Part shown: in pieces, positions 54,864 through 60,466 of the stretch
Layout: each line of letters starts with the position of its first letter
Numbering within the stretch: position 1 is the stretch's first letter
NCBI RefSeq assembly: GCF_002214365.1
Contig: NZ_CP014854.1
Coordinates: forward strand, 1,488,001-1,552,000
Length of the DNA: 64,000 nucleotides
Direction of reading: 5' to 3'
From: Thermococcus celer Vu 13 = JCM 8558
GTDB taxonomy: Archaea; Methanobacteriota_B; Thermococci; Thermococcales; Thermococcaceae
Position numbers and translations under genes: made by a program
Notes under the pieces: generated by a model
Told to the model about the DNA's origin: nothing
The model's database searches: none
Seen by the model: the letters and a program-made list of their open reading frames with translations, nothing else

Positions 54864-55667
54864 CTAACTCCACGTCTCGGCTATGACGTCGTGCTTGTGT
54901 ATGCTCTCGTTGCTGATTACCCTAACGTGGATCCTCCCGTTGAAGCGCTCCTTCGCCTTGGCAAGTATCTCGCGGGCGACGTCCTCCACGAACTTCGGGT
55001 TGGCGAACATCCCCTGAACGACGGCGTTCTCGTCGACCGTCTTGAGCAGGGTGTAGGTCGGGTGGCTGAAGGAACCCTCAACGACGTCTATCATATCCTC
55101 GAGTGCTATCTCCTCGTCGAAGGCCGTCCTGACCTCGAGCTCGCCGACGGCGCGCTGTATGTGGGTCTTCCCGTCGTTGTTGGCCATCGCGTGGGGGCAG
55201 ACGGTGTTGCCAGTTACCTTGACGTGGAGCACTTTCTCGAAGGAGCCGTCCCCGTTCTTTATCACGCCGACCTCGACGTCGTAGGGTTCGTAGCTGACCT
55301 TTCCGCTCGCCGGGGTCTCCCTCGGGACGATGAGGTGCGTCCTTATCCAGACCTCCGCGTGCCTGTGGGGGTGCTTCCCCTCCAGCCTGCGAATTACGGC
55401 CCTCCCAAGCTCCTCGAGGGAGCGGTGGGCCCCCATGACCTCCTCCTCGACGGCCTCGCTCATCGCCTCGGTTATGCTCTCGACGAGCCGGCTCATGTGG
55501 ATGCCCTTCTTCTCGGCCGGGACGTCTATGGTCACCTCGAACAGCGGGAGGAAGGTGTAAACTCTTCCCTTCCAGTTTATCCTCGCCACGGTTCGCAGGT
55601 TGGTTATCCCGACGCGGTGAAGGGGCTCCATTATCTCGGGTTTCTCCTCCTGTGTCTCAACCGACAT
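54864..55667 (-). CDS. mptA: GTP cyclohydrolase MptA (FolE2 type)
   Basis: This 267-residue enzyme converts GTP to 7,8-dihydroneopterin 2',3'-cyclic phosphate, the first step of archaeal pterin (methanopterin-type) synthesis. [16 protein letters not shown] carries the metal-binding Cys and His, and [13 protein letters not shown] and [12 protein letters not shown] are family motifs. ATG 55667 (MSVETQ) follows GGTGATGGTC. It starts 12 bases after the McrC-like gene's stop, so it might share that transcript, though the functions appear unrelated. Confidence 0.94.
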
Positions 55668-55678
55668 GACCATCACCT

Positions 55679-57136
55679 TTAGTCTCTCTGCTGGGACATC
55701 TGCTCGAGGCTTTTTAAACCTGCGCCGTGACGTGAATTACCCGCTTCCCTCTTTTCACACAGCGCCAGAAGGGTCTCCCTCAGGTTTCTGGCAATCGAAT
55801 CCCTCAAAACGACGCCGTTCCGGGTTATGAACACGTCCGTGCCCACCCTGGAGAGCTCGTAGCCAAAGAGAGCGAAGGGCGTTCCGTCGAAGAAGCTAAG
55901 AAGCTCCCCGCTGGGTTCGAACATGTCCGGAATCCAGTGATTGTACGCTCCCTTCAGCCGGGGATAGACGATTGCGGCACTCCCTCCGGCGAGGCGAGAA
56001 TACGAGTATATCTGGTAGAGGTCCTCGCTGCTGCGAACGAGCTTCCTCCACCAGTTTCCCCCCATCTTTACGATTAAACCACGGTACTTAACCTCGATCG
56101 CGCACTTCCCGGAGTCCGTCACAACCAGTATATCCGGAAGCGGGGAGCCAAGAGTAAAAACGGCGCCCAGTTTCGCCTCCACCCTCCCGTGATCCTTAAC
56201 GATGTGCGGGAGGGTGTAGTTCCTGTAGACCACTCCCTTCCCGTTCAGGGCTCGCTTAATCGTGTGATACGCAAGGTCCTCAAACAGGTGGGCCATGTCT
56301 ATGAAAACGCCCTGTTGTCCCGAGTTCGTTCCGGTCTTTCTGCTGAAGCCGGTTAGGATTATCGTCGCGAGGGTGTAAACCGGTTTGAACCGTTCGTTCA
56401 GGGAGTTGAAGGACACCCTTTCAGGATCTTTTTGGTCAAGCGTCCCCACCCCCCTGAAGTACTCAATCAATGAGCCGGCCGCCCTTCCAATACCCCGCCA
56501 CTCGGAGTTCTCCGCAACAACTTCAAGAGCCGCTTTTAACACCCTGTTCAACGGATTGTCTACCCCAAGAGCGGAGTGTCTGACCGGAACGTCCACTCCC
56601 ACGGGTGCGGTCCTGATCAAACGTGAGAGAAGCACCCTCCCCCGGATGGTCTTCGAGCTCTCCTCAAGCTCACTGTACTCCTGATACATCCCGTGGAACA
56701 CCCTCCTCTTCAGCTGGAAGACGTAGAGGTAGAAGAACAGCTCGTGGATGAGCTCGCCCTCGTCCCCGTAGGCGGAGATGGCGAGTTCTATGTCACGCGG
56801 GCTCATACCGAGGTTACCGCTCATGTTGAGGAGGCTGAGGAAGAACTTCATGGACCGCCTCTGGTCAGGGTCGTACCTGTAGGGTTTCGGGAGGATCTGT
56901 ATCATGAAGGGCTCATCCCCCAGATGGTAGGCGAAGCCCACGCTCCCGTGGGTCTTGATGTAGTACTCCCCCCGGCTAACGTCGTATTTTAAACTCAGGA
57001 CCTCATGTTCACGGCCGTAAACCCTGTTGATGGACTCGAAGAACCTGTGGAGCTCGGAGGGGTGCAATTTCAGGCCCTCAGCCTGAAGGCTCCGGAGGTA
57101 TCTCCTCTGGAACTCGTGAAGGGTCACAACCTTCAT
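55679..57136 (-). CDS. mcrC: McrC-like nuclease subunit
   Basis: This 485-residue protein is partner of the McrB-like ATPase. The N-terminal half is helical and strand-rich with the conserved IRGRVLLSR segment (about 164-172). The C-terminal half is a PD-(D/E)xK nuclease: [13 protein letters not shown] (Glu286), [19 protein letters not shown] (Asp335, Glu348, Lys350) and YQIYSYSRL. McrBC enzymes cut DNA carrying modified bases after GTP-driven translocation by McrB. Its ATG overlaps the McrB stop by four bases. All visible catalytic residues are intact. Confidence 0.9.
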
Positions 57137-59247
57137 TCCGACCCCACCAGTCTGCGGAGGGCATCCATGAACTCGTCGATGTCCATCTGGATTATCCTGC
57201 CCCTCTCGTCTATGAACTCGAATCCGGGATAGAGGGACCTTAGGTGTTCCCAGTTTCCGTAGAAGTACTCCTGGAAGAGGGGTAACACCTTGTGATAGAA
57301 CACCATGTACAGCGCCCTCCTCGGGTCATCGGCGGAGGCTACATCGAGGAAGTACCCGTGTCCCACGGTGTAGTCCTTACCCTTTTCCTGCTCGATGATG
57401 GAGTTCAGCCTCATGAGAAGATGCTCGAGGTCCACCCCGTCCACGCTCACGTCCCTCAACCTCCCCGGGTCGGGGGTCAGTTCCACGAACGCGAACCTCC
57501 TCCTGAGTGCTATGTCGAGCATCGCTATGCTTCTGTCCGCCGAGTTCATTGTCGCAACTATGTATAGGTTGGGAGGCAGTGCGAAGAGCTCCCCGGAGTA
57601 CGGCAGGGTTACTATAACCTCGTTTGGAGCGTCCAGCCTTTTATCCGGGTCGAGAAGGGTTATCAGCTCTCCAAATATTCTGCTCACGTTGCCCCTGTTT
57701 ATCTCGTCGATCACCAAGTAGAAATCCCTTCTGGGCTTTATGCCTGTTCTCTTCCCGCTCTTTCGTTCCTTCAGGAACCTCTGAACCGTTGCCTTCATAT
57801 CACTGTACCCAACCTTGCCCCCACCCTTCCTGAGTTCATCAGGCAGGGAATCGTAGATCGCCCTCACCGTTAGTCGCTTGAACACACCGTCAGATACACG
57901 GTACACAACGTTCCCTTCCTTTTCAAAGGGTCTGAAGCCCTCCACGAAGTCCTCGTAGCTGTAGGACTGGTGGAACGTGACAAACTCCCCGTTTCTGGCT
58001 GTTTTAAGTGCCATGTATGTTTTGCCCGTGCCGGGCGGCCCGTAAATGATAACCTGTTTGAAATTCCTCAGCAGGGGCTCCAGAAACGCTCCTTCCGCTT
58101 TTTCACCACCTTCGCCTCCCTCCAGTTCGCCCCCCTGCCCTCCTGTTTTGGCTTCCTCGAACGTGTACAGGTAATCAACGTCCCCGCGAAGGAAGTAGTA
58201 AAAACCCCCGCCCGAGCTTTTGCCTCCGCTTCTGCCGAAGTAGAGGACCCTTCCATCCAGGGAGATCCCGGCGAACTTCGGGTCAAGGACCCCCGGAACG
58301 TACCTCCCAAGAACCGCACCCCCCTCGAAATCGCCCGGCTTTATCTTTTTAGACGACTTGACAACCTCAAAGGGCACAAAACCAGCCCTCACGTTTTCAC
58401 GGTAAACGCCCGTTATCAAAAAGAGCCCCCGGGACGTGAAGGACAGGAACACCAGCTCCCCGGGGAGCGATACCGGGTTTTCTCCCGTGGGGGTCATGAC
58501 GTAAATCTCCTTTCCTCCCTTGACCCCGAGGGCGGCTATGAACGAGTCGCCTTCCAGCCAGATGTCCCCCACGGGTCTCCCGCCACCTGAAACAACGTTG
58601 GATTTTGATAGTACTTCAATGCTGTCCCAGAACTCCCTGGCGGAGTAGTAGGGGAACATCGGGAAGGGGATCCTGCCCAGTTTCAGCCTGGGTCTTTGAT
58701 TTTCCCTGAAGGTGTAGAGCATGTAGATGGAGTCCCCCGTGTCCCTTACCGAGTGGATGTAGGCAAAGCCCCTGGGCGGCGTCGGTATCTTAACGACCTC
58801 AACGTCCGCGGGGGCGATGTAATCGACCTTGTAATCACAGAACACCAGGAGTCTGTCCATTGAAGTTAGAGTCACGTAGAGCGGTAGCTTGGTAAAAGCC
58901 ACCGAGAGGGCCTCGGATTCCGGGTCCTCGGACTGGATCGGGTAGAGTTTGACCTCCCCGGTTCCACACTTTGTAAAAACCGCGAGCTTTTCACTCCCGG
59001 GCAGGATCACGACCTCGTCCGCGCAGGACACCGCGATCCCTTCACCCCAGCCTTTGACGACTTCCCCCGCCGTTTCAAAAACGTGTATGAACCTTGAGTC
59101 GTCGTCCAGCCGAACCATGACCGCCAGGTACCTGCCGCTGGGAAAGAGCCTAAGCTCTTCGATCACGAAACCAAAGTCCCCGTACTCCGTGTCCAGAAAT
59201 CTTTTTATCAGATACATCGCGTTCTTCATTGGCATAGGATGGCTCAT
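57133..59247 (-). CDS. mcrB: McrB-like AAA+ GTPase with N-terminal putative beta-propeller
   Basis: In this 704-residue protein the C-terminal part is a McrB AAA+ motor: Walker A GPPGTGKT (about 403-410), FHQSYSYEDFVEGFRP, Walker B YLVIDEINRG and the McrB signature MNSADRS (about 567-573). The first 370 residues contain no known modified-DNA reader. They show about seven strand-rich repeats (for example SGRYLAVMVR, SEKLAVFTKCG, MDRLLVFCDYK, DSIYMLYTF, DSFIAALGVKG, RGLFLITGVY, DGRVLYFGRS), as in a WD40-like propeller. A Gly/Glu linker joins the halves. ATG 59247 behind GGTGATTGTA is preferred to 59301, and TTTAATAAA at about 59275 gives a separate promoter. Confidence 0.85.
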   Translation of the reverse strand: MSHPMPMKNAMYLIKRFLDTEYGDFGFVIEELRLFPSGRYLAVMVRLDDDSRFIHVFETAGEVVKGWGEGIAVSCADEVVILPGSEKLAVFTKCGTGEVKLYPIQSEDPESEALSVAFTKLPLYVTLTSMDRLLVFCDYKVDYIAPADVEVVKIPTPPRGFAYIHSVRDTGDSIYMLYTFRENQRPRLKLGRIPFPMFPYYSAREFWDSIEVLSKSNVVSGGGRPVGDIWLEGDSFIAALGVKGGKEIYVMTPTGENPVSLPGELVFLSFTSRGLFLITGVYRENVRAGFVPFEVVKSSKKIKPGDFEGGAVLGRYVPGVLDPKFAGISLDGRVLYFGRSGGKSSGGGFYYFLRGDVDYLYTFEEAKTGGQGGELEGGEGGEKAEGAFLEPLLRNFKQVIIYGPPGTGKTYMALKTARNGEFVTFHQSYSYEDFVEGFRPFEKEGNVVYRVSDGVFKRLTVRAIYDSLPDELRKGGGKVGYSDMKATVQRFLKERKSGKRTGIKPRRDFYLVIDEINRGNVSRIFGELITLLDPDKRLDAPNEVIVTLPYSGELFALPPNLYIVATMNSADRSIAMLDIALRRRFAFVELTPDPGRLRDVSVDGVDLEHLLMRLNSIIEQEKGKDYTVGHGYFLDVASADDPRRALYMVFYHKVLPLFQEYFYGNWEHLRSLYPGFEFIDERGRIIQMDIDEFMDALRRLVGSE

Positions 59248-59297
59248 TACAATCACCAATTGGAATATGGGGCGAGATTTATTAAATCTTTCCCCGC

Positions 59298-60068
59298 TCA
59301 TCTCAGGATTTCCATCAGCCTCTCGTAGCTCCTCCTTGCCGCCGACACGTCGGCCTCGTCCAGCCTGCCCGCGTATTTGGCCCTCTCGAAGATCCTCGTG
59401 AGAACATCGAGGTCTTCCAAGTCCTGAAAGATTTCCCTCAGCCTTTCCTCATGCTCCCAGTGCGTCCAGCTCTTCTGGTAGGGGTAACCCTTACGGACGA
59501 GGCCCGCAACGACGTTCTTGTACATCTTTATCACCCTCTCCGCGGGGGTACCCTCTATGGAGTCGTACGTCATCTCCGGCTCGAACTTGACTTCAAACGT
59601 CGTGACTTGACGTTTCCGTCTCTTGGCCGTGAGAATTAACAGAATGAAAACGGCGAAGGGCAGCAGGTAGAACACCCCGGGAAGCTCCTTCAGCGTGACC
59701 ACAAAGTCGCCGGAGGTGACGTTGTACCAGATTCCGGAAAGTGTTTCCCCCACTTTACCGGTGTTCACCAAGTGTTCCGGCTTTTTTTCAAAAATCAACC
59801 TGATGGCAACGAAAATCGCCAGCAGCGTTATCGCGCCGGCCAGAACGTTCCCCCTCTTGGTTCTCCGAATCCCCCTCTCGATGTTGCCCTCAATGAGGGC
59901 CCTCAGCACGTAACCCGCGGCCGCGAACAGGAACAGGTTCGCGAAGAAAAAGACCCACTCGAAGTTAAAGACCGTGGTGCCCCCGTGGATGGCCGTGTTT
60001 CCGAGAAGGGTGGAGACGAGAAGAAAGGAGGCGAAGAGGATGACGTAAAGGGTTCTCAGCCTCTCCAT
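59298..60068 (-). CDS. DUF4129-type membrane protein next to McrBC
   Basis: This 256-residue protein has four membrane segments (about 7-25, 35-55, 76-95, 130-147) and a cytosolic C-terminal domain of about 95 residues with ERVIKMYKNVVAGLVRKGY, then LDVLTRIFERAKYAGRLDEADV, the pattern of DUF4129. DUF4129 proteins usually accompany MoxR ATPases, DUF58 and transglutaminases; here the partner is an McrB-type ATPase, which is unusual. It overlaps the DUF1699 gene (13 bases), and its stop overlaps an alternative McrB start. The role is unknown; a membrane sensor or effector is possible. Confidence 0.82.
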   Translation of the reverse strand: MERLRTLYVILFASFLLVSTLLGNTAIHGGTTVFNFEWVFFFANLFLFAAAGYVLRALIEGNIERGIRRTKRGNVLAGAITLLAIFVAIRLIFEKKPEHLVNTGKVGETLSGIWYNVTSGDFVVTLKELPGVFYLLPFAVFILLILTAKRRKRQVTTFEVKFEPEMTYDSIEGTPAERVIKMYKNVVAGLVRKGYPYQKSWTHWEHEERLREIFQDLEDLDVLTRIFERAKYAGRLDEADVSAARRSYERLMEILR

Positions 60069-60466
60069 CGCATAACACCGGCCTGCTCCAGGATGTAATA
60101 GACAGTCCTCAGGGGGATACCGGTCCTGGCGCTTATCTCCTTGGCGGAAAAGCCCTTGAGGAGGAGGGCCTGAATCTCCTGAACGGTTCTCTCGTCGTAC
60201 TTCCTCGGTCTCCCTCTGGGGTATCCCTCGGGGACGAGCTCTATGCCCATCTGGGCGAGTGCGTTGATGACCTTCCTCGAGACCTTCGGGTAGAGGCTCG
60301 GCGGACAGGAGATCTTCCTGACGTTGGGCGCGCGCTCGAGGATCGTCACGAGTATCTCCTTCGTGGGGCGGCGGTTCACGTAGACCTCGGTAACCTCCTC
60401 GTTCAGCGCGCCCTTGAGCTTCCGCAGAAGTTCCGCGTTGTTCCTGGCCTTGACCTCCACCCGCAT
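60056..60466 (-). CDS. DUF1699 protein with C-terminal helix-turn-helix
   Basis: This 136-residue protein has a DUF1699-like domain at residues 1-90 (PNVRKISCPPSLYPKVSRKVINAL matches that family's core). GRPRKYDERTVQEIQALLLK then GFSAKEISARTGIPLRTVYYIL is a resolvase/Hin-type HTH with an AT-hook-like GRPRK. A DNA-binding regulator is likely. The stop overlaps the DUF4129 gene, so the two are translationally linked. GGTGAGGTT precedes ATG 60466, and the DUF530-like gene ends four bases upstream. Confidence 0.85.
   Translation of the reverse strand: MRVEVKARNNAELLRKLKGALNEEVTEVYVNRRPTKEILVTILERAPNVRKISCPPSLYPKVSRKVINALAQMGIELVPEGYPRGRPRKYDERTVQEIQALLLKGFSAKEISARTGIPLRTVYYILEQAGVMRWRG

Follow-up and report, generated by a model that had tools for sequence, protein, structure and literature searches.

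A variant Type IV McrBC of Thermococcus celer whose McrB carries a predicted seven-bladed beta-propeller front end

The stretch analysed here, a 64-kb window of contig NZ_CP014854.1 from the Thermococcus celer genome (64,000 nucleotides; all coordinates are those of the window), carries on its minus strand a gene pair encoding McrB and McrC, and this McrBC is a real and new variant of the Type IV McrBC systems with a trigger that is probably not a modified base. We explain it, with moderate confidence, as a Type IV-like McrBC with a seven-bladed beta-propeller standing in for the usual DNA-reading domain, the whole probably acting in four steps. McrBC is the accepted model of modification-dependent restriction. 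If the propeller is indeed the reader, a trigger of a different sort can be coupled to the motor and nuclease, the better uptake of unmethylated plasmids by McrBC deletion strains of Thermococcus kodakarensis could be explained, and annotations of archaeal McrBC as 'methylcytosine restriction' may be wrong. A direct test is within reach in T. kodakarensis, a genetically tractable organism for which deletion strains are already available. The features of the pair are as follows.

59247-57133, minus strand: McrB open reading frame, 704 amino acids, from translation.
58156..59247, minus strand: N-terminal domain of McrB, residues 1-364, with a helix (8-22) and seven four-stranded blades (about 28-363), a predicted beta-propeller (AlphaFold2, Foldseek).
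58090..58155, minus strand: Gly/Glu-rich linker joining the propeller to the motor, at about residues 365-386 and of varying length among homologues (translation, alignment).
57133..58089, minus strand: McrB AAA+ GTPase motor with GPPGTGKT, DEINRGN and MNSADR (PF07728, phmmer).
55679..57136, minus strand: McrC nuclease subunit, with a 4-bp overlap with the McrB stop and Ser at the Arg263 equivalent (PF10117, alignments).
59248..59300, minus strand: region that likely contains the promoter and ribosome-binding site of the pair (TTTAATAAA; GGTGATT), by sequence reading and inference.

The first-pass annotation had placed the McrB gene correctly at 57133-59247, and the gene reads on the minus strand from 59247 down to 57133. 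We favour the start at 59247 over a possible upstream ATG at 59301 because the Shine-Dalgarno-like GGTGATT immediately 5' of it, the TATA-like TTTAATAAA farther upstream and the aligned starts of the homologues all agree. The C-terminal half of the protein matches PF07728 (E=2.8e-13), and its closest relative in the PDB is the McrB of Thermococcus gammatolerans (TgMcrB; 6ut3, E=8e-68 by phmmer), with E. coli McrB also matched. The motor carries a Walker A motif (GPPGTGKT), a Walker B motif (DEINRGN) and the NxxD motif in the form MNSADR. The partner matches PF10117 (E=4e-45) and resembles TgMcrC (6ut5_G), and the PD..(E)xK nuclease residues are preserved across the aligned McrC members. The pair therefore has the features by which a Type IV McrBC is recognised, an McrB-type AAA+ GTPase with Walker A/B and MNxxDR and an adjacent McrC with PD-(D/E)xK, and lacks two others, the basic activating residue of McrC and a known modified-DNA reader (DUF3578, YTH or EVE).

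The front end of McrB is predicted to be a seven-bladed beta-propeller. Two AlphaFold2 models were obtained, each built from a four-sequence alignment and with lead sequences 47% identical to each other; the first reached a mean predicted local distance difference test score (pLDDT) of 80.6 and a predicted template modelling score (pTM) of 0.82, and the second, led by a homologue, 84.1 and 0.84. Both models place an N-terminal helix ahead of an identical order of strands that group into seven four-stranded antiparallel blades, with one strand of blade 3 only partly formed. Foldseek searches of the PDB with the two models returned 363 and 180 matches at E<=0.001 (best 4e-7), and among the matches listed essentially all were beta-propellers, including WD40 proteins, the clathrin terminal domain, the prolyl oligopeptidase propeller and AztD; the named viral matches were mostly WD40, RCC1 or Kelch proteins. 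The propeller fold suggested by the first-pass annotation was thus borne out at the level of prediction, and in the structure prediction and fold search that had been set beforehand as its test the DUF3578, EVE and PUA folds were absent among the matches listed. Its statement that the first 370 residues contain no known modified-base reader likewise held, as no Pfam reader was found in any of the 21 homologues, and the Gly/Glu linker is present where it was described. Indeed, neither a Pfam match above chance to the front end (residues 1 to about 370) nor a Pfam repeat above cut-off (WD40, Kelch, PD40 and similar) was found in any of these 21 proteins, and the front-end profile gave no sequence match beyond chance in the PDB. 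The known readers DUF3578, YTH, EVE and B3 were rejected as candidates on these sequence searches and because their folds were absent among the structural matches listed.

A second departure from the known systems lies in McrC. In TgMcrBC, Arg263 of McrC activates GTP hydrolysis by McrB, and an alanine mutant gives no stimulation (PMC7680126). By alignment, none of the 22 McrCs paired with an McrB of the propeller clade or of its sister clade (loci L110-L129, L200 and L201) has this Arg, the position being Ser, Pro or His, whereas the 16 other Thermococcales McrCs in the alignment all have it. The first-pass annotation, to which the McrC partner looked intact, thus needs correcting: the nuclease motif is intact, but the McrC residue that activates the GTPase has been lost throughout the clade. 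This loss in McrC of the propeller clade is a new observation; since the activating residue is also absent in 11 of 76 bacterial McrCs, it is a trait of the clade and not unique to it. With the basic residue that stimulates the TgMcrBC GTPase missing from these McrCs, GTP hydrolysis in the propeller McrBC is probably controlled by something else, perhaps by the propeller. The replacement of MNT by MNS was dropped as a marker of the arginine loss, as it holds only partly in bacteria.

Published experiments bear on the system through T. kodakarensis, whose TK0794-TK0795 pair (McrBC1) is a member of the propeller clade by gene order, protein mass, chromosomal site, layout and sequence. It has the same site, domain layout and size as the T. 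celer pair and a front end about 45% identical. For the T. kodakarensis propeller McrB (genome G023, locus L123) we calculate a mass of 79.68 kDa, which agrees with the 79.7 kDa given for TK0795, a GTPase subunit, in a published list that also names TK0799 as top6B (PMC7325993); at L123 top6B likewise lies four genes from the propeller McrB, matching the TK0795/TK0799 order. McrC genes number exactly two in this genome and are separated by 193 kb, which suits TK0794 and TK1010, and the deletion sizes that we infer from published amplicons (about 3.5 and about 3.9 kb; PMC13385129) fit the two McrBC pairs. TK0795 was detected on isolated chromosomes (PMC7325993). In the deletion study (PMC13385129), transformation with autonomous plasmids was highest after deletion of TK0794-TK0795, the trends among strains were alike for dam+dcm+ and dam-dcm- plasmid DNA, the deletion changed little for integrative plasmids, and growth of the deletion strains was reduced. 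This phenotype suggests that the trigger of TK0794-TK0795 is not, or not only, methylation, and the non-methylcytosine trigger proposed in the first-pass annotation agrees with it. In print, McrBC1 is described only as a putative 5-methylcytosine system, with the propeller unmentioned.

The ligand and trigger of the propeller McrBC we infer as follows. By homology to TgMcrBC and EcMcrBC, McrB would hexamerise through its AAA+ GTPase ring and recruit McrC. The propellers, on their flexible linkers, would then capture the target through a conserved loop face; the loops on one face (b-c and d-a) are somewhat better conserved than those on the opposite face (permutation p=0.016). On account of the fold and of the published deletion phenotype, the target would be something that marks foreign DNA as it replicates and not a methylated base; a protein or nucleoprotein is the most likely candidate, for instance the replication complex of a plasmid or virus. 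Engagement of the target would in turn allow GTP-driven translocation and cleavage by McrC. We propose tentatively, at a little short of an even call, that the propeller detects replicating foreign DNA by such a protein or nucleoprotein, that GTP hydrolysis is no longer controlled through the McrC arginine, and that the pair is in effect an anti-plasmid or anti-virus sensor-nuclease and not a modification-dependent enzyme.

Several observations weigh against our main explanation or the fold beneath it. The models rest on four sequences each, and their TM-scores to solved propellers are only about 0.2-0.5, so that the fold class can be relied on but not the exact geometry; geometry and blade count are uncertain. 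The seven strand-rich repeats of the first-pass annotation are clear as blades in the predicted structures but weak in sequence, where blade-versus-blade profile comparison gave P<0.001 for 2 of 21 pairs. The authors of the deletion study read the phenotype as methylcytosine restriction; in every strain the transformation with unmodified DNA was still about 100-fold better, and modified DNA was degraded even by lysates without either McrBC (PMC13385129); the gap in all strains and the degradation by double-deletion lysates mean that other activities are at work. Finally, propellers can bind DNA, and a reader of a modified base or of damaged DNA could have this fold.

This last point leads to the first alternative, in which the propeller itself binds and reads DNA that is modified, damaged or unusual, and the pair is still a classical modification-dependent Type IV enzyme whose reader has a new fold. 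DDB2, a WD40 propeller, binds ultraviolet lesions. The McrB-family front ends of solved function all bind DNA (DUF3578, YTH, B3; PMC7680126), invariant residues with charged side chains are found close to the blade loops, and the detection of TK0795 on isolated chromosomes (PMC7325993) suits such a reader, whereas the similar strain trends with dam-dcm- plasmid DNA and the small effect on integrative plasmids (PMC13385129) do not. The front end is acidic in all 21 homologues, but we dropped this as an argument against DNA binding since charge is uninformative here, the DNA-reading domain of TgMcrB being acidic as well. On balance we regard a DNA reader as unlikely, though worth serious consideration.

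The distribution of the pair was compared across 94 Thermococcales genomes. The propeller domain occurs in 21 of them, all in one genus, and is always fused to the McrB motor. Wherever the contig permits checking, the McrBC pair sits between HTH-DUF530-Top6A-Top6B and MptA (HTH, helix-turn-helix). In the window, the two edges of this site and a further neighbour are as follows.

60056..60466, minus strand: conserved HTH gene, one edge of the insertion site (locus comparison).
54864..55676, minus strand: GTP cyclohydrolase gene, which we take to be MptA-like, the other edge of the insertion site (locus comparison).
59298..60068, minus strand: DUF4129 membrane protein gene, a neighbour (PF13559).

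The pair is missing from about two-thirds of the genus, with clean empty sites: of 34 genomes of the genus that lack it, 13 have a nearly empty site (51-211 bp) and 21 a site with only the DUF4129 gene (about 800-920 bp). McrB similarity conflicts with that of housekeeping genes, being 88% against 81% for one pair of genomes (G072/G026) and 62% against 94% for another (G031/G037), and the McrBC pair has therefore been exchanged horizontally and lost at a fixed site. These data bear on a second alternative, that the pair has turned to chromosome maintenance, for instance the removal of stalled or abnormal DNA close to where topoisomerase VI acts, and is not a defence system. PcdA, an McrB-family protein, has been co-opted in a comparable way in Staphylococcus. 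The fixed site beside Top6A/Top6B, the presence of TK0795 on isolated chromosomes (PMC7325993) and the growth defect of the deletion strains (PMC13385129) would all fit, but the absence of the pair from so much of the genus, the identity conflicts, which are as expected of an exchanged defence locus, and the plasmid restriction phenotype make this role improbable. Propellers are common scaffolds, but that this one is merely an oligomerisation or partner-docking platform, with the target recognised by McrC or an unlinked protein, seems to us very unlikely, as sequence identity among homologues is 43-72% in the front end and about 58-84% in the motor, a faster divergence like that of a specificity domain, and no conserved extra gene accompanies the pair besides the fixed housekeeping neighbours.

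The DUF4129 gene comes and goes at the HTH-MptA site independently of McrBC and on either side; it was rejected as a third component and is a neighbour, because it is found without McrBC and on both sides. The small HTH protein, with weak similarity to DUF1699, occurs in 90 of the 94 genomes, and at the loci compared within the genus its gene neighbours those for DUF530 and topoisomerase VI.

With T. gammatolerans McrBC (PDB 6ut3-6ut8) the T. celer pair shares the AAA+ motor with NxxD and the McrC PD-(D/E)xK nuclease; it differs in that TgMcrB has a YTH-fold reader of 6-methyladenine of about 190 residues and TgMcrC keeps the Arg263 absent from the propeller clade. The E. coli system has the motor and nuclease architecture in common, but its reader is a DUF3578 methylcytosine-binding domain and its activating basic residue is McrC Lys157. 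CoCoNuT systems likewise combine an McrB-family GTPase with a replaced front end, yet they have an NxD motif and coiled-coil/CSD front ends, whereas the propeller McrB has NxxD (MNSADR). Propellers and WD40 domains are unmentioned in the main text of the CoCoNuT census (PMC11090510), and our literature search found no paper naming either in McrB. Convincing homologues of the propeller domain were absent from viral contigs and from elsewhere in the phylum, as were convincing full-length plasmid-borne homologues of the propeller McrB. No Pfam propeller was found in 52 other McrB N-termini, where such domains can escape Pfam.

The nearest relatives are the second T. kodakarensis McrB (L200:2249-4735; TK1009 by gene order, in McrBC2, TK1009-TK1010) and L201:2507-4969, which branch beside the propeller clade in the motor tree and whose McrCs likewise lack the activating Arg. 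McrBC2 differs in lying at another chromosomal site. The front end of L200 and L201 is about 390 residues long, contains no known domain and is weakly comparable to the propeller (hhalign P=0.03, with the first two blades in register); judged on sequence, it may be a second propeller family. A weak profile match to the propeller domain was also seen in another family of the same class (G109:C31:3798-4037, E=0.0025).
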